Shown in pieces: positions 20,605 through 63,853 of a DNA stretch of 64,000 nt. The notes under the pieces were generated by a model. The model was not told the origin of the DNA, searched no databases, and saw nothing but the letters and a program-made list of their open reading frames with translations. The stretch's first letter is position 1. Every line of letters begins with the position of its first letter. Made by a program: the position numbers and the translations under genes. The stretch is taken from positions 11,904,001-11,968,000 of the forward strand of contig NC_088786.1 of the NCBI RefSeq assembly GCF_949628265.1, in the 5' to 3' direction. Source of the DNA: Cloeon dipterum (lineage: Eukaryota; Arthropoda; Insecta; Ephemeroptera; Baetidae).

Positions 20605-23347
20605 TCAGATCGGCTTGTAGAGCAGAGTGGTTACATACTTTTTGCGGTAGCGGTGTGTCGCGCTGAGCACCATCACGCCGTCCTTGATCGACAACGCGTA
20701 CAGGTGGTTAAGCATCACGTGGTTTGGCTCAGGAAGCAAGGTCGGCTCACACTGCAATCAATCAAAGTGCGTTTGGAGGATTAGCGACACGGCCCTTGAC
20801 CTTTCTTACAAAATCAATCGTGGCACTTATCCAATAAACTTATTCCCTGTAAGGATGTTATTTTCATTTAAATTTATTTTTCACGTAGGTTGATAAAAAT
20901 TTCTAGGACATTGCAGGTTTGAAAGTGTAAAAGTACCTGAAAAGTGCTTTCAATCATCTGCTATCGCTTATGGAACAATTTTATGCCGAATATGAGTGTA
21001 AAATAAAACTGCAGTGATATTAAACATAAATTAACACTAACGTTTTTAGTGTCGTATTGAGCTGACTGATCTTTTCCCTTTGTCCAATTGATAATGTAAT
21101 GTATTCAAAATGGAAATGTATGGGCTCTGCTCTCTGCTGACCCGCAATAAAATTTCTTTGAAAGTTAAAAGACTTAAACAAAGAGGGTCGTGCGAGACCA
21201 GTCTTTTCTATAAGAAATTCTAATCTTACTTTGAATCCTGACTTCTGCTCAACACTTTTGCCACTTATTGTTAGTCTGAATATAATGAGACGTAAAGAGG
21301 AATATTCAGACTTTTGGCCAACCCAGCAATGGCGCTCCTACATTAACAATAAATTCTATACACCACGGGAAATGTTAAGAAAACGTGTAAAAAAGAGCTA
21401 ACGATTGCAAGTTTGCTCCATCATTTGTTTGCATTTTTGGCTTTTAGAGGTTTGAAGCCTGAACATTTTGCAACACTGTACATCATCAAGTGCAAGTAGT
21501 TCTCGTGCTGGAGCGGGCTTTAATTTCAATTAATGTTTGTATAGTATAGTTATGGAGGCAGAGATACACCAAAAGGGATAATTATTTCAGAATCAAATTA
21601 CACCATTTTTATTTATCACTTCATAGTTCCAAATATTTGAAATATGCATTGAACTAAAATTGTTTCACAACAAAATATTTTTAATTTGCCCTTAAAGATA
21701 ACTAACAGTAGAAAAATCACAATTTCAATAAAATGGTACTTTTATATAGGATCCCAAAATTATTATTCAATTTTTAAATCCTATTTTCAGGGAAATTATT
21801 TACCTCAAATGAATTCTGAGCCAGAATCGAATTAACAGGGGTAAACTATATTAATGCCTAGTTGATGAAATGAATTTTAAGTGATACCACTTACAGAAAG
21901 AGGAGTGTCCTTGTTGAGAATGACCTGCAACAAATGCGGAGGCAGAACAGGAGGCGATGGCACTTTTTCCCAAGGCTTATTCACAGGAATATCTTGAGAG
22001 TATTCACCTACAAGACCATTCAAAAATTACACCCTTTAAGTGCTGGAATAAATTTGCTGACTTAAACTCACTCTGCGTATGTGACTCAGAAGCTTCGCTA
22101 TCAATTGCTAGAGCTTCAAACACTTCAAAATCAGAGTGTTTCACATACACGAGGTTGGTTTTGCTGCCTTCTTTGCCTTCTTTGCTGTTGGTGGTGATGG
22201 TCTGAATTTTAAACTTTAGAGCTGTCCATTTTGTATTTGTTAATAAACTTACTTTTCCTGAGTCATGTTTCCACTCGCCATCCACCAGGAATTTGTACTC
22301 ATGTTCTCCCTCCGGCAGATCGACAATTGTTACAAAGTCTCCCTGACTGAAATTTTAAATGCAACGATGAATTAGAAAAAGTAAATTTTCTTCAGGTTCA
22401 AAGTTTCAGACATTATGGTATTAAGAAATGATCAATGATTGCTGTCAAGTTTTTTCTTAGTGACAATGACAATAATGCATTAAGTCATATTAGACAAGGC
22501 AAAAGCTGATAATACTCTCCTGGACATGTAATGTTCCATAGTTTAGAATAATTATTAGACACCTCGTGATGTAATTTTATCCATACATACTATACAAATA
22601 TATTTAAAATATTTCCCTGTTTAACTGATTCTCATCATTTTGTGCATTATTGATTGTTCAGAGGAGTAAGAAACCTCCCAACTAAATTTGACAATTTTTC
22701 AGCTCATCCACAACTCTACAACTTATTTGAGTTACCTTTTGTGCCGTTATATTTTCTTTTTAATTAACTAAACACACAAGAATTTATTTATAATTATAAC
22801 ATTTCCTTGATCTTTGATGAAAAAGTTACAACCCCCTAAGCCAGTGAAATTCTCGCGAAAATAAATTAATTGTCATGTTGAAGAAACCATGATAAAATCA
22901 ACAATACCTCTTGACCATAGGCAGAGTTTTCCAGTTGGAAAAAGTGCCGCTGACATAGACCTGCTTGCCTCCTCCCTCCCACTTAAACACCGTCGGCAGC
23001 GTCTTCTTTCCTTTGTTGTGGTTTGATCCTTCAGAGACGGTGGCCGACCGCTGCCTCGTCTCCATCTGGAACTCAGGGTCCTGGAAAATCAAAGGCACCA
23101 TATATTTCTGCACAACATTGGGATTACTTTTGGTGAAGACAACCTGAGGGTGTGACGATGTGGGCGAAGGCTTTGTGAAAAAGGGTGCTTCGTCATCATT
23201 GGAGTGTTGTTGCGCGATTTGGATTCGGTTTGGGGGTTTTCGGTCGAATGTGAAAGCATTTCCGTCGATTTTTCCTGGAGAGCAAGGTGGCAAACTATCG
23301 CCAGATTTATGTCTCTCCCTGGAATTGCTGCTTGATGCGTTCCCCAT
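20605..23347 (-). CDS. AMPKbeta: AMP-activated protein kinase beta subunit
   Basis: Five coding exons on the minus strand, 23347-22908, 22346-22253, 22201-22072, 22007-21895 and 20751-20605, give 307 residues in consistent phase. The protein begins MGNASS, so Gly2 is available for N-myristoylation, as in the family. A carbohydrate-binding module (CBM48) spans about 118-195 (FKWEGGGKQVYVSGTFSNW ... LPEGEHEYKFLVDG). It keeps the Ser equivalent to mammalian Ser108 in KSQGDF. The C-terminal alpha/gamma-binding domain is nearly canonical: PPHLLQVILNKDTPLS, LPEPNHVMLNHLYALSIKDG and HRYRKKYVTTLLYKPI. The subunit scaffolds the AMPK heterotrimer and senses glycogen. An acceptor at 23355 just before the ATG implies an untranslated first exon further right. 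It is divergent from NR2C2AP and probably shares its promoter region. The fly orthologue is alicorn. Confidence 0.97.
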
Positions 23348-23355
23348 CCTCAAAC

Positions 23356-24318
23356 CTGGGAGAGATAAAGTATAATCAAATAGATTGCACAGTCTTTTGT
23401 CTTTCCTTGACGTTGCATAATCTAAATTAATCTTCCTGATTGTTAAAATCCAAAATTAGCAAAAGCAATGATCAAATTTTCCTCATGCCATATCTACGCA
23501 AAATAGCAAGAGAATTCAATTAAAATGCAATGACAGTTCGAATCACACTAAAAATAGAAACCAAAAATAAATTCCTCACTACACAGACTACAGACTCATT
23601 GTCAGTGCAAACAAAGGAAAATAATCAGCAGCGAGGAAAAAATGAAGTGCGCAAAGAGCAAAATCAACAAGGGGACGCAATAAACACTATAAGCCCTGAT
23701 TTCAGCATTAATTTGGGCATGTACGTCTCTCACCCTATATTTCACGTGTTTGGCAACGAAGGAGTGCGAGCTGATCACGCGTTTGATGTGGAGAAAGTGA
23801 CTAAAAGTGGTATGATTTGCGAATAATTGTTGTCCGTCGATTAAAACAAATAAAAAACAGATGGGTCACGTTCATTTCTCCAGATCGCTATTGGGGCGCT
23901 ACTGTCGCGCCAAGTTTATCAAAAGCGTGGAGCGTAGTGAAAGTGAAAATAGGGGAAAACCTAATGCGGGATGATATATTAAAATGCTTACCAAGCAATT
24001 TAGAATAATTTGCTTCAATGGATAGCCTTTAAAGTGCTTTAAGATTTGATTAAGGAGCAGAAAGAGTAAAAACCTTCAATTCGGCTCTAAAAATAAAACA
24101 GGGAAAGCTAAGTTCCAGATGAAACTTCCTCTCCTCATTCATCATCCCACTCATTTATAAGAAAACTCACAGGGTACCTTACCACCCAGCGAGCCCGCTC
24201 TCGTGTGCTCGACAGTCTCGTCACACCTGGTACGCACGCATGTAGTAAATATACGAACACAAACGCATTGCGATCAGTTTTTTATCCTCTTTTCTCTGAA
24301 GTTGCCCGGCAAATTATG
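23356..24318. promoter_or_regulatory. Divergent promoter region, AMPK beta / NR2C2AP
   Basis: This 1-kb interval separates the AMPK beta coding exon (minus) from the first, untranslated exon of NR2C2AP (plus). The latter ends at 24318 with a strong GTGAGT donor. The right end (about 24170-24260) is GC-richer, as expected for start sites. The open frame at 23530-23826 has no supporting features and I do not call it. The untranslated first exon of AMPK beta should lie here; its position is not resolved. Confidence 0.45.
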
Positions 24319-24601
24319 GTGAGTATTTTGTGATATTTTCTTTGATCAACAATATTATAACCTCGATGAGAGAGACGCGTTTTATTTTTTGGATAATTTT
24401 GCTTATGTATATTTTGTTTTATTTTGATACTTATTATAAAATAACAAAATTGTTGGGATCAGATATCAGATTTGATCATTGTATAATGCGTTTGTAACAT
24501 TATACATTACAAATCTATGTATGTACGTAGTAAAATTCATAATAAAATATTTTGTCGCTTGTTCCAGGATACCTGCCAATCTTGAAGAAAAATTAGGAAA
24601 T

Positions 24602-27600
24602 ATGTCCAATATTTTGACGATGACCCAGTTTAACTGCAGGTGTCTATTTTGCTTTGCCTCTCTTATTTTCTGTATCTGAACTCTGAACACAATTGTGGAT
24701 TTATGTATGTACATTTTCAATGGGTGTATTTTGCAGGGTCAGTTCCACTCTGAACAGAAATGTAAAGGAATACGGGAAAAAATTTATGTTTGATGGACAA
24801 GAAGACACCTGTTGGAATTCAGATCAGGTACCAATAAATAGTTAATTAACATTTCCTCTAAACCACCATTAGAAATATTTGATCTTGTTGCTCTACACGT
24901 TATCACGCTCAATTCCTACTAACTGTCATACTTTTTTTTCACTTATAAGTAACCAAAATGGATGAAGAAAGGTGTGTGCAAGTTGTTCAACTGCGCCATT
25001 TGCCTGAAGAGTTCGACCTTCTGACAGGCGTGCATATTCTGCCTCATGGGGACGGCATTCACCTGCTAATTTGGAACAGCAGCCACGTTTTCGTCTTCAC
25101 CGGAGCTGACCTCGAAGAACTCGAACACAGACAGCCTGCTGTGCTAAATGTGTCACATATCTGTCAAGTAGTCGGCAATGACGACTCAGACATTGTGTTG
25201 CTGCTGGACAGCAAAGGCTCCCTCTACGAATGGAGAGAAGTGGTGGTGGAAGACCTTTTTCAAGACGACGAGCCCAATCAGTCCCAACCGACCCTACTGG
25301 CCTCTGGCTTTCTGGCCGTCTGTAGCAGCAGCATATCCAATGTCTTTTACGGTTTAACCTCGACCGAAGAGAAAGTAAAACTCGTTACATTCACAGTGAC
25401 CATGGATGCTTTGCAGGAGCACTCGAGTCTCGTCATTAGCCGAACTGTGCCAGGAAAATGTCTCCTCAACGTGTTCCAGAGCGAGGTTTGTCCTTCGGAG
25501 CTGCTGTCCCTGCTGTGTCCCGACTTTGACTTGAGTGACACTGCCTGTGACGTGGCATTTGCTAAGCTCGGCGGCAACGTTGTTTATTTTTGCCCCCTCG
25601 TCCCGGACGAAAGCGAGAGGCGAGTGTCTGAGGTGTCTACTTTACACGAAATTGAGCACATAGCTCTTGCGAGAGAGGACGGAAGTGCCATCTTGGCTTT
25701 TACGGACGCTGCAGTTCTCACGGTGATGGAGGCCGAGGGCGGACTGATTAAGCGGACGGATGTGCCTTGCGTGCAGAGCCAGGTGGTGTGCCAGGTGTCC
25801 ATGGACTCGTTCTTCGTGGCAGACTTGCTCTCCTCATCCAAAATCACTGTGGGGCAGCAGTCCAAGCCTCTGGACCTCCGGGGATGCGTGGCCGCCGCTT
25901 GCCTTGAGGAAAATGTTGCCTTGGCGCTGACGCTGCACGGTGTGTTGTACAAAGTGGACCTCGCTGCTGATCGGGGGAGCATCACGAATGCGCAACGGGA
26001 TAAACCAGATGGACTGTTGGATAAGATTGGCAAAACGAATGAGCTGATCCGACAGACTGAGCGTGCCATCAAAGAGGAAAACGCCAAACTTAAAGAACTT
26101 GCTGTGATCGGCTCGGCTGAAATGCTGAAAGACACCTTTCGGCTGCAGGTCAAAGTGCATGACCTTCTCGAACCTGAGTTTTGCGCCTTTGACGTGCTGG
26201 TGCTCAACAATTCCAAATACGTTTTCCTCGAGCAAAACTGGAATCTTGTATTGTGTCTAACGTGCAAGGACTCTATCCAAACCTATAACCAGAAGCTGAC
26301 CAACACGCTCAAGGTCGGCGAAGTTGTCAAGGTTGTGGCCAAATTCAAGGTCAGTGAGCTGAGCCTCCCAACGACCCTACAGTGCCAGATGCTGAAGCTG
26401 AGTACCGTTCCAAGCAGTAGCAGCGTCTTCTCTATGGAATTGCCACTGGGGCTGTTCCCCTTTGACGTTGCCAGTGTCGATCTGGACATCACGTATTTTT
26501 TGACTCCCACCTCTGTCGACCCAGTCACTGAATACAGACAAGGCCACCCTCTTATACAAAGTTGTGAAGACAGGTACACTTTCTTGAGTCTCAAAAATCG
26601 TGTATTACCCATTTTTTACATAGTTGTATTATAGCCATTTTTATTCTAATACTGTGAGAAGTTAATTTTTGTGGTCAAAAAATGGAAGATATTTTTGTTA
26701 AAATTCTTAGGACTTTAAAATGTGATACAAGCATTCTCTGCACCTTACCAATCTTCTTTCGGAAAACTGAAGCTAAAAAAATACCGTTGAATTTCATTAA
26801 GAATTGTAAAACTAATTTTGTTTTCAAAAAAGGCGGGAAATTTTAAAAGTCTAAAAACCTATTAAAGATATCAGTGGCTAAGGTAATCCTATCACTAAAA
26901 ATTGAGGTAAAACACGCCTTATTTATGCGTTATTGAGTATGAATTGAAGTATTGAACCTAGTTGATTTGTGCTATCTTTTTTACTCTCATAAATCATTTG
27001 CTCATATTTTTTTAAAACACTTATCGCTAGCAAATGAGCCAGATTTTCCAGTTAAATTATTGTTTTTTATTCCGCGTCACTGGTTAAGTTTACCAAAACA
27101 GATAATAATAGTTCTCTGAAAAATATTCTAGAAAAATATTTATTTCATGTCTGTTAGTCTTAACAATTTTTTACAACCTCGTGCTTCAGGCCGCTTGGTA
27201 GAAAACTGCATTCCCGGCAGTGGGAAACAAACATGGATCTGGATCAAGTGTGTAGGTTGCTTTCGCAGAAGTGTGCTCACCGCGCATTTGGCGCTGTACG
27301 TGCTGGCGTCAGGGCCGCCTTTGCGGTGGCAGGCAACAGGGTGGACTTAAACTGGGCTGACGGCACCCTGACTGTCTCCAGCGCTGACCTGCCGCTCATC
27401 CTAGACGTCCTTTCGCACCTACAGAATTGCAAAGATGGTGCTGACACCAAGAGTGGAATGCAGCTAATGGCTTCATTCTCTTCAGACTTTTTTGCTCAGG
27501 CTGAAAACGTTGGACTGGCCCATGAATACGCTCTGCTAACCAACACCTGTAATGAAGAACTCGAACTCGAGTTGCAAGAGCAGCTAAGGAAACTGGTCGT

Positions 27601-28071
27601 TGCTCAATTTGAGCTGTCAGACTAATGATCCTCGTGCCAATTTTGTTAGTTGATTTTTTATCCTTATCTGTAGTCCCTCAATTTAATTTCATAACTTGAA
27701 AAGCAACAAGATCAAATTTTATTAAAACAGAAAATTATTAACACAAAAATATTGTATTCATCTTTACTGAAATTTGCTCTTTTTTGTTTCAGGGTCTTCC
27801 CCAATGGGTTGATATTGAATTCAGCACTGATGTGCCTCCAGTCACCGCAGTGAAGATTCAGTTCCAAGGAGGCTTTGTTGGTGAGGAGTGCAGGCTAGAG
27901 GCAGGAGAGCCTTTGGAATTGGTGCAGAACGTCTATCCTGAGGACATCAACACGGTACAGACATTCAGCCTAACTAAGCCAGTAAATGCGAAGCACATGA
28001 GATTGACATTTTCTAAAAGTTCGGATTTCTTTGGTCGGATAATAATCTACAGTTTAGAGCTGATCTCTTAA
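24602..28071 (+). CDS. NR2C2AP: NR2C2AP (TRA16) orthologue, galactose-binding-like fold
   Basis: Coding exons 24602-24639, 24737-24827 and 27793-28071 give 135 residues, close to the ~139 of the vertebrate protein. An untranslated exon ends at 24318 (ATG|GTGAGT) and splices to 24568. Family hallmarks are RVSSTLNRNVKEYGKKFMFD, DTCWNSDQGLPQWV, KIQFQGGF, YPEDINTVQTF and DFFGRIIIYSLEL. NR2C2AP is a small protein known as a repressor partner of the orphan nuclear receptor NR2C2/TR4 and has a discoidin/galactose-binding-like beta-sandwich. The third intron (24828-27792, about 3 kb) contains a complete unrelated same-strand gene (24958-27625). Splicing of the first exon to 24568 creates a six-codon upstream ORF (ATG at 24316) that stops before the main ATG. 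Confidence 0.9.
24917..24949 (+). promoter_or_regulatory. Branch point, pyrimidine tract and 3' splice site before the FAAP100-like ATG
   Basis: A perfect TACTAAC branch-point sequence at 24917-24923 is followed by a run of eight T within cttttttttcacttataag, ending in AG at 24948-24949. This lies only 8 nt before the FAAP100-like ATG at 24958. This complete 3' splice site argues that the nested gene is spliced to an upstream exon, most simply the first exon of NR2C2AP ending at 24318. Confidence 0.65.
24958..27625 (+). CDS. FAAP100/FANCB-like Fanconi anaemia core complex protein, nested in NR2C2AP
   Basis: Two exons, 24958-26573 and 27190-27625, join in phase 2 and give 683 residues. The first ~345 residues form beta-strand-rich repeats as in a propeller. 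A coiled coil at about 350-385 follows (LLDKIGKTNELIRQTERAIK), then LVLNNSKYVFLEQNWNL, a beta-sandwich region and PLGLFPFDVASVDL. After the intron come DRPLGRKLHSRQW and a helical C-terminus ending in an amphipathic ELELELQEQLRKLVV. This domain order and several motifs resemble vertebrate FAAP100, which with FANCB and FANCL forms the catalytic module that ubiquitinates FANCD2/FANCI during crosslink repair. Similarity is recognised by pattern only and is divergent; FANCB is the main alternative. A weak polyA signal ATTAAA lies at 27721, just before the last NR2C2AP exon at 27793. Confidence 0.55.
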
Positions 28072-28179: not shown

Positions 28180-28185
28180 AATAAA
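28180..28185 (+). terminator. PolyA signal of NR2C2AP
   Basis: AATAAA lies 109 nt after the NR2C2AP stop, on the right strand and at a usual distance for 3'-end processing. Confidence 0.55.
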
Positions 28186-48275: not shown

Positions 48276-49384
48276 TTATTTCTTCCATCCGCCGTGGCCT
48301 CCGGAGCCGCCAGCATCACCTCCGTGCGCGCCAGCGGCAGCACCCGCAGCGCCCTCAGCAGCGATCTGAGCGCCGAGCTTGGCAGCGTTGGCGGCGGCGG
48401 CGGCGGCCAGGGAGGCAGCGCGATCAGCCTGGGCCTGGGTCTGGTGAAGGTCGGAGATGGCAGCAGCCAGTTGGTTGGAAGCCTGCTGGGCGCGCAGCTT
48501 GGCCATCTGAGGGTCAGAAGGGGATTAATGGAAGCTGTACGTGTCTTTCAAAATAATTTGATTTGGCAGCAAGCGTCAGGGTTATTGGGATTTGGTAATA
48601 TTTCTTGGACACTTACGGCAACCATGCGCTCTTGGGCTCCAACCTCCTGTTGGGACTCACCGGCGGCCTTCTCGGCAGCGTTGGCAGAGTTCTGGGCAGC
48701 GTTGAGGGCAGCGGTCAGGGAAGCGGTCTGCTGGTTGGCCTGTTGGGCGGCCTGCTGAGCGGCCTGGGCGGCACGGTTGGCCTGGTCGAGCTGAGCGATC
48801 TCGGCGCCGATCTGAGCTTGCGCGTCCTGGGCAGCCTGGTGGAGGGCGTTCACGATGGCCTGCTTGCCGGCGAGGGCAGCACGGGCGGTCTGGGCAGCCT
48901 GCTTGGCGTTGGCGGCCAGGGCAGACTTAGCCTGGTAGGCGGCCTGCTGAGCGGCCAGGCCCTGCTTCTCGATCGAGGCGTGCGCCTGGTCGGCGGCGCT
49001 GCGGGCGATGGAAGAAGCTGATCCGCTTCCGCCGCCTCCGTGTCCACCGCTGCCTCCTCCGTGTCCACCGCCACCGCCGCTGCCTCCGTGTCCACCACCG
49101 AATCCACCACCGAAACCGCCGCCGAATCCGCCTCCGAAACCGTGGCCAAAGTCTCCTCCAAAACCGCCGCCGCCGAATCCACGCTTAACCTGTCAATGCC
49201 AAATTGGTGTAATTTTCCATTAAATACTATTTTTATGAGAAACTTACCCTGGTGTCCTGAGCAAAAGCGAAAGCGGCAAGAGCTGCAAAGGGAAAACGGT
49301 TGTGCATAAGATTTGTACTCAAGCTTATCAAGGTTCTGATATCTTACCCACGAGGGCGAAGGTGACAATCTGGAATTTCACCAT
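48276..49384 (-). CDS. Secreted Gly-rich, Ala/Gln coiled-coil protein (DUF745-like)
   Basis: Four coding exons on minus, 49384-49348, 49282-49248, 49189-48617 and 48506-48276, give 291 residues with matching phases. A signal peptide (MVKFQIVTFALVALAAFAFA) ends before QDTRVKR, a likely processing site. Then comes a Gly-rich block of GGGFGG and GGH/GGS repeats (about 27-75). A ~180-residue Ala/Gln-rich helical region follows, with repeats such as ALAGKQAIVNALHQAAQDAQ and QQAAQQANQQTASLTAALNA. It ends in a short Gly-rich tail, GGSGGHGGWKK. The Ala-rich coiled-coil pattern strongly recalls insect DUF745 proteins, secreted structural proteins of unknown function. The combination of Gly-rich and coiled-coil parts fits a matrix, cuticle or adhesive polymer. 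An additional 5' UTR intron is predicted: donor near 49539, acceptor tttgtctcag near 49411. Confidence 0.8.

Positions 49385-59696: not shown

Positions 59697-63853
<4,157 letters not shown>

Follow-up and report, generated by a model that had tools for sequence, protein, structure and literature searches.

A FAAP100-Like Gene Nested Within an Intron of NR2C2AP in Cloeon dipterum and the Possible Sharing of a First Exon

Organization of the Locus

The locus considered here belongs to the mayfly Cloeon dipterum and lies in a 64-kb window (C1:11904001-11968000, the whole stretch of DNA that was analysed, to which the positions below refer) of a genome of 190 Mb in 10 contigs, five of which, each of 33-43 Mb, carry approximately 187 Mb. 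Within a single intron of NR2C2AP, and on the same strand, there is a second gene encoding a protein of 683 residues with resemblance to FAAP100, and immediately before the ATG of this inner gene stands a candidate 3' splice site through which it may be joined to the promoter and first exon of its host. Splice sites were scored with a model built from 34 introns of this genome located by protein fit (CLTC, 11; VCP, 6; PRPF8, 12; EEF2, 5), each intron being the GT-AG or GC-AG pair that best fitted the protein, with a penalty of 5 for GC. All rows were kept, including those of low margin (4, 5, and 11, the last being a GC donor), while short introns falling within one tblastn piece were left out. 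The features of the locus are as follows:

24276 to 24318, plus strand: putative shared non-coding first exon, ending ATG/GTGAGT, its 5' end guessed from the TCAGTT at 24274
24568 to 24639, plus strand: NR2C2AP exon 2, placed by reading frame, with a short leader, the end of a six-codon upstream open reading frame (uORF) and ATG 24602; acceptor 24567, 10.2 bits
24737 to 24827, plus strand: NR2C2AP exon 3, placed by reading frame, ending in phase 0 at CAG/GTACCA; donor 5.6 bits, with 9 of the 34 trained donors scoring no higher
24828 to 27792, plus strand: host intron of NR2C2AP, phase 0, 2,965 bases, containing the inner gene
24917 to 24923, plus strand: TACTAAC, branch-point-like, with the likely branch A at 24922, 27 nucleotides (nt) upstream of the acceptor G
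24932 to 24949, plus strand: T8 tract (24932-24939) and acceptor-like AAG (AG 24948-24949), 4.5 bits
24950 to 24952, plus strand: TAA, which would complete ATG-TAA after a join to 24318, or stop a 43-codon fragment of NR2C2AP after a join to 24827
24958 to 26573, plus strand: inner (FAAP100-like) gene, coding exon 1, an open frame whose middle stretch resembles human FAAP100
27190 to 27625, plus strand: inner gene, coding exon 2, with its stop codon at 27623-27625; acceptor 27189, 6.6 bits
27721 to 27726, plus strand: ATTAAA, a consensus match; no other ATTAAA and no AATAAA stands in the stretch from the inner stop codon to the last NR2C2AP exon
27793 to 28071, plus strand: NR2C2AP last coding exon; acceptor 27792, 14.3 bits

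The original prediction had placed the NR2C2AP exons in phase around a two-exon gene of 683 residues on the same strand, and this anatomy was confirmed by coordinates and frames. The coding exons of NR2C2AP (24602-24639, 24737-24827, and 27793-28071) join in one frame to encode a protein of 135 residues, and those of the inner gene (24958-26573 and 27190-27625) meet at CAG/GTACAC and CTTCAG/GCC with preservation of the frame. Alignment of the host protein with an unverified sequence of human NR2C2AP gave identity at 58 of 137 columns (42%; expectation value [E] 1e-38), and a match to the F5/8 type C domain (E 3.9e-6) reached 27.4 bits, slightly below the cut-off of 28.2. With its 2,965 bases, the host intron exceeds all 34 trained introns (55-644 bases), and it is closed by an acceptor of exceptional score; only 2 of the 6968 AGs of the window, 27792 itself counted, reach 14.3 bits. 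A consensus scan found AATAAA at 28180, 28206, and 28211, downstream of the last coding exon of NR2C2AP, and the ATTAAA at 27721 could serve to end the inner message ahead of that exon. The two proteins are unrelated in coding sequence, with no convincing relation detected by BLASTP (exon 1 of the inner gene, best E 2.4; exon 2, E 0.033 over 14 residues). The genome was searched with inner exon 1 and with 24230-24957 for a duplicate or retrocopy in which a spliced junction might have been preserved, and only the locus itself was recovered, the last NR2C2AP exon and the joined junctions lying outside that search.

Identity of the Inner Protein

The label "FAAP100-like" attached to the inner gene by the original prediction is a fair name, although it is carried by only part of the chain. 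The human FAAP100 sequence used for comparison proved to be identical to chain 7kzp_P of the PDB. Residues 322-478 of the inner protein (157 residues) aligned with residues 421-602 of human FAAP100. When inner residues 341-500 were compared with human residues 441-640, parts that were chosen after the alignment had been viewed, the local score was 70, as against 29.9 ± 4.9 for 500 shuffles (best 54), none of which reached 70. The entire inner protein scored 71 against human FAAP100, while its shuffles gave 42.3 ± 5.1 (best 70; 0 of 500 reaching 71). No signal was found in the remainder of the chain, where 295 of 500 shuffles were as good for the first 340 residues and 491 of 500 for the last 183.

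Searches of domain and structure databases did not add to this. With the 683-residue protein, no Pfam family was detected at E values up to 10, FANCAA (PF15146) included, and a search of the genome with FANCAA returned no match at the locus and one sub-threshold place on another contig (15.8 bits, E 0.65). With phmmer against the PDB, the best matches were to windbeutel proteins, both for the inner exon (E 0.77, with E up to 1 allowed) and for its middle part (E 0.1, with E up to 10 allowed), and FAAP100 was not listed in either case. FANCB has a layout resembling that of FAAP100. As a possible partner subunit, a FANCL_C domain was found above cut-off at one of the four places listed in the genome (42.1 bits), FANCL being the sole other Fanconi subunit searched. 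From the middle stretch, the identity of the inner protein as FAAP100-like is likely, its orthology being unproven.

The Acceptor Preceding the Inner Gene

Directly before the inner ATG, a complete 3' splice site had been proposed. Its parts are indeed all present, with TACTAAC, the T8 tract, AG, TAA, and ATG succeeding one another, but the acceptor is a below-average one. It reads AAG/T, and among the trained acceptors A occupies position -3 in only 1 of 34 and T position +1 in 4 of 34. Its 4.5 bits are equalled or exceeded by 520 of the 6968 AGs of the window (itself counted), and 6 of the 34 real acceptors score as low; an earlier model built on 29 introns gave 4.3 bits, a score not exceeded by 5 of its 29 real acceptors. 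The other acceptors of the locus score 10.2 (24567), 10.4 (24736), 6.6 (27189), and 14.3 bits (27792).

The sequence upstream of the AG is more distinctive. TACTAAC is a rare word in the window, occurring as one copy on both strands together where dinucleotide shuffles give 4.9 ± 2.4, and the placement of that single copy at the correct distance is more than chance. The 75 nt before AG 24948-24949 are free of any other AG, and 2.05% of the AG spacings in the window are as long. TACTAAC was found in the last 50 nt of 2 of the 34 trained introns, compared to 6 copies on both strands of 138,688 unique bases. In these same bases, 4 of the 6 copies are followed by an acceptor scoring 4.3 bits or more; when the seven letters are permuted in all 210 ways, this holds for 591 of 3659 places. 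The four comprise the candidate, a pair of training introns, and a single copy independent of these (11.8 bits), and the remaining two have no such acceptor. Taken as a whole, the acceptor at 24949 is probably real, weak, and usable, while remaining below the average of its kind.

Candidate Donors and Splice-Built Leaders

The original prediction assigned donor 24318 to this acceptor. That site, ATG/GTGAGT, is strong (9.3 bits, with 28 of the 34 trained donors scoring no higher), but two others, at 24639 (6.3 bits) and 24827 (5.6 bits), had been missed, and both are able to pair with the same AG. The consequences of each pairing were followed by in-silico joins started from 24277, and the two short elements anticipated for donor 24318 were reproduced. 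When 24318 is joined to 24950, the ATG that ends the first exon meets TAA to form a start-stop element; this is the single upstream ATG before ATG 24958, and its TAA begins eight bases before the latter. When 24318 is joined to 24568, a uORF of six codons (MDTCQS) results. The first-exon ATG was accordingly rejected as the start of either protein, the two joins giving M-stop and MDTCQS-stop, respectively. The join of 24639 to 24950 leaves three upstream ATGs with open reading frames of 6, 17, and 11 codons, and that of 24827 to 24950, which would remove an intron of 122 nt, creates the 43-codon NR2C2AP fragment, the TAA of which stands 5 nt ahead of the inner ATG, and leaves six upstream ATGs in all. 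Translatability favors donor 24318, and neighborhood favors donor 24827.

Origin of the Inner Transcript

The reading that we favor, with a probability of roughly 0.4, is that the two genes share a promoter and a first exon and that the inner mRNA carries the junction of 24318 with 24950; this grading, like those worded below, is a judgement and not a computed probability. RNA polymerase would start near 24276, and one promoter would serve both genes. In some transcripts, donor 24318 of the first exon would be spliced to acceptor 24949, itself weak, and translation of the FAAP100-like protein would begin at ATG 24958 behind a short leader bearing the start-stop ATG-TAA. In others, the NR2C2AP exons would be joined in order, with the very strong acceptor 27792 drawing donor 24827 across the entire inner gene. 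The strength of this acceptor fits the need to outcompete the inner acceptors across 2,965 nt.

This proposal of a shared first exon draws on three kinds of evidence. The first is the acceptor region, where the only TACTAAC of the window has its branch A at the noted 27 nt from an AG with a clear 75 nt upstream. The second is the donor, 24318 being the strongest of the three and its leader the cleanest, with one upstream ATG compared to six for 24827. The third is the distribution of promoter signals. A consensus scan for the strict initiator (TCAKTY) found TCAGTT at 24274, immediately before the presumed first exon, and no strict match in either 24640-24736 or 24828-24957; the latter interval also has neither an ATG nor TATAWA. 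CpG was depleted in the sequence that precedes the inner gene (observed vs. expected, 3 vs. 9.0 in 24640-24957 and 4 vs. 11.3 in 24568-24957), whereas the presumed promoter showed no such deficit (14 vs. 10.3 in 24150-24400).

Several observations weigh against a shared first exon. A second TCAGTT, at 24739-24744 inside the middle NR2C2AP exon, is a possible internal start for the inner gene, and a looser initiator, TCACT, occurs at 24939; because the strict motif is met 1.6 times per kb on the plus strand, neither TCAGTT proves a start site. The control genes CLTC, VCP, and PRPF8, for which start sites were approximate, are without a clear CpG promoter pattern, and for this reason the CpG pattern is given little weight. 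The association of TACTAAC with acceptors is partly circular, with independent support coming from one of three copies. Acceptor 24949, with its AAG/T and 4.5 bits, must outcompete 24567 at 10.2 bits for donor 24318, and donor 24827 adjoins it at a distance of 122 nt.

The initiator-like matches at 24739 and 24939 would suit an inner gene with a promoter of its own in 24640-24957, that is, an ordinary nested gene beside which the acceptor motif is idle or serves a local 5' exon near 24739. We regard this as somewhat unlikely. It would accommodate the below-average score of 24949, and nested intronic genes are not rare, accounting in a ctenophore for 12.24% of exonic bases, a share similar to those of primates and some arthropods (PMC8527503). 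Such a promoter would nonetheless have to do without a strict TCAKTY or TATAWA in 24828-24957 and would lie in a CpG-poor stretch, the meaning of which is unproven, and the presence of the window's one TACTAAC at this place would become a coincidence unless used by a local intron. A TATA-like TATAAG at 24944 was considered as a promoter element and discarded, since from its position the start would be expected to fall beyond the inner ATG.

Alternatively, transcripts from the same NR2C2AP promoter might be spliced from donor 24827 to 24950, with the inner protein produced by reinitiation or leaky scanning, or with the product being a non-productive form of NR2C2AP. Here the nearest donor and acceptor would be paired, the intron would fall inside the trained range of 55-644 bases, and the join sets a TAA directly in the NR2C2AP frame; six upstream ATGs, however, make a poor leader for the translation of a 683-residue protein, and 24827 scores lowest among the three donors, so that we hold the pairing to be unlikely. 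The trans-splicing of a spliced-leader RNA to AG 24949, by which the inner gene would need no donor of its own, agrees with an acceptor 8 nt ahead of the ATG but is highly improbable, spliced leaders being, to our knowledge, not known from insects. Apparent shared first exons in a ctenophore did turn out to be leader sequences (PMC8527503).

If donor 24318 does serve both acceptors, it is possible that the choice between them decides which protein is made. The fuller proposal, in which a single choice of acceptor would select between the two unrelated proteins and also govern how well the selected one is translated, through a splice-built uORF for NR2C2AP or an ATG-TAA brake for the FAAP100-like protein, and would thereby couple a DNA-repair subunit to a receptor-associated protein, appears unlikely at present.

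Comparison With Known Systems

The cholinergic locus is the only arthropod pair with a shared first exon that we are able to name, no survey having been made. Its two genes, ChAT and VAChT, belong to the same pathway; we know of no functional link between NR2C2AP and FAAP100, and no paper naming both was found in the collection of papers searched. In the tick Ixodes, a host intron contains the inner gene, and a first exon of 82 bp is common to both mRNAs, as confirmed by reverse transcription polymerase chain reaction (RT-PCR) (PMC7524744). A shared first exon at this locus is likewise cited for mammals, Drosophila, and Caenorhabditis elegans (PMC3469465). The likeness to the present locus resides in the position of an inner gene within a host intron and, if our reading is correct, in a first exon common to both messages. 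The two differ in that VAChT lies in the first intron of ChAT, whereas the FAAP100-like gene occupies the third intron, with two host exons between the presumed shared exon and the inner acceptor.

Similar arrangements have been described elsewhere. CPNE1 and RBM12 are one of 24 selected human pairs that have a first exon in common but differ in coding sequence, the two genes being on the same strand with a shared promoter and 5' exons; for CPNE1 and RBM12, the sharing was demonstrated by complementary DNA (cDNA), expressed sequence tags (EST), and RT-PCR and was found in human, mouse, and zebrafish (PMC2568002). For NR2C2AP and the inner gene, by contrast, we infer the sharing. In unc-60 of C. 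elegans, a single first exon is spliced to either of two downstream exon sets, and the nearer set is skipped when the farther one is used (PMC3469465); its products are homologous ADF/cofilins, unlike the pair encoded here. A start-stop uORF, an ATG followed directly by a stop codon, is present in the leader of Hoxa11, where it stalls the 80S ribosome and a stable downstream stem-loop plays a major part (PMC8172242). The putative leader of the inner gene would resemble it in its ATG with an immediate stop codon and would differ in that the splice itself would build ATG-TAA; in the Hoxa11 account, a stem-loop is involved and the start-stop is not described as splice-built.

Same-strand pairs with a common first exon are already known, and novelty here, if the reading is true, would be confined to the identity of the two genes and to an ATG-TAA built by the splice. 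In that event, the pairing of a Fanconi core-complex subunit with a receptor-associated protein would provide a clean case of a strong distal acceptor skipping a whole gene, and of an upstream open reading frame that differs with the splice chosen. Annotators would, moreover, be warned that inner genes may have no promoter of their own.

Neighboring Gene and Minor Observations

Upstream of NR2C2AP, open frames on the minus strand at 22898-23455 and 22004-22354 run divergently from it; they resemble the 5' part of a gene that we presume to encode an AMPK beta subunit, the body of which appears to be CpG-depleted. A two-way promoter region near 23500-24280 may be common to this gene and NR2C2AP. 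Elsewhere in the window, a simple repeat of the GA/CT type at 60648-61138 appears as RERERE and SLSLSL open frames, and an open frame on the minus strand at 48551-49192 is glycine-rich, as judged from its first 60 residues.

Across the genome, matches to the C5 DNA methylase family (PF00145) with identical scores and equal counts of in-frame stops were noted at C1:5729557, C1:37796866, C2:34367368, C3:6665545, and C5:31830998, with further sets on C2, C4, and C5, and 35 matches listed altogether. The stretch at C1:5729557 (L046) adjoins repeated open frames. This looks like a DNA methylase gene that has multiplied across the genome, perhaps in association with a mobile element, and introns may explain the stops.

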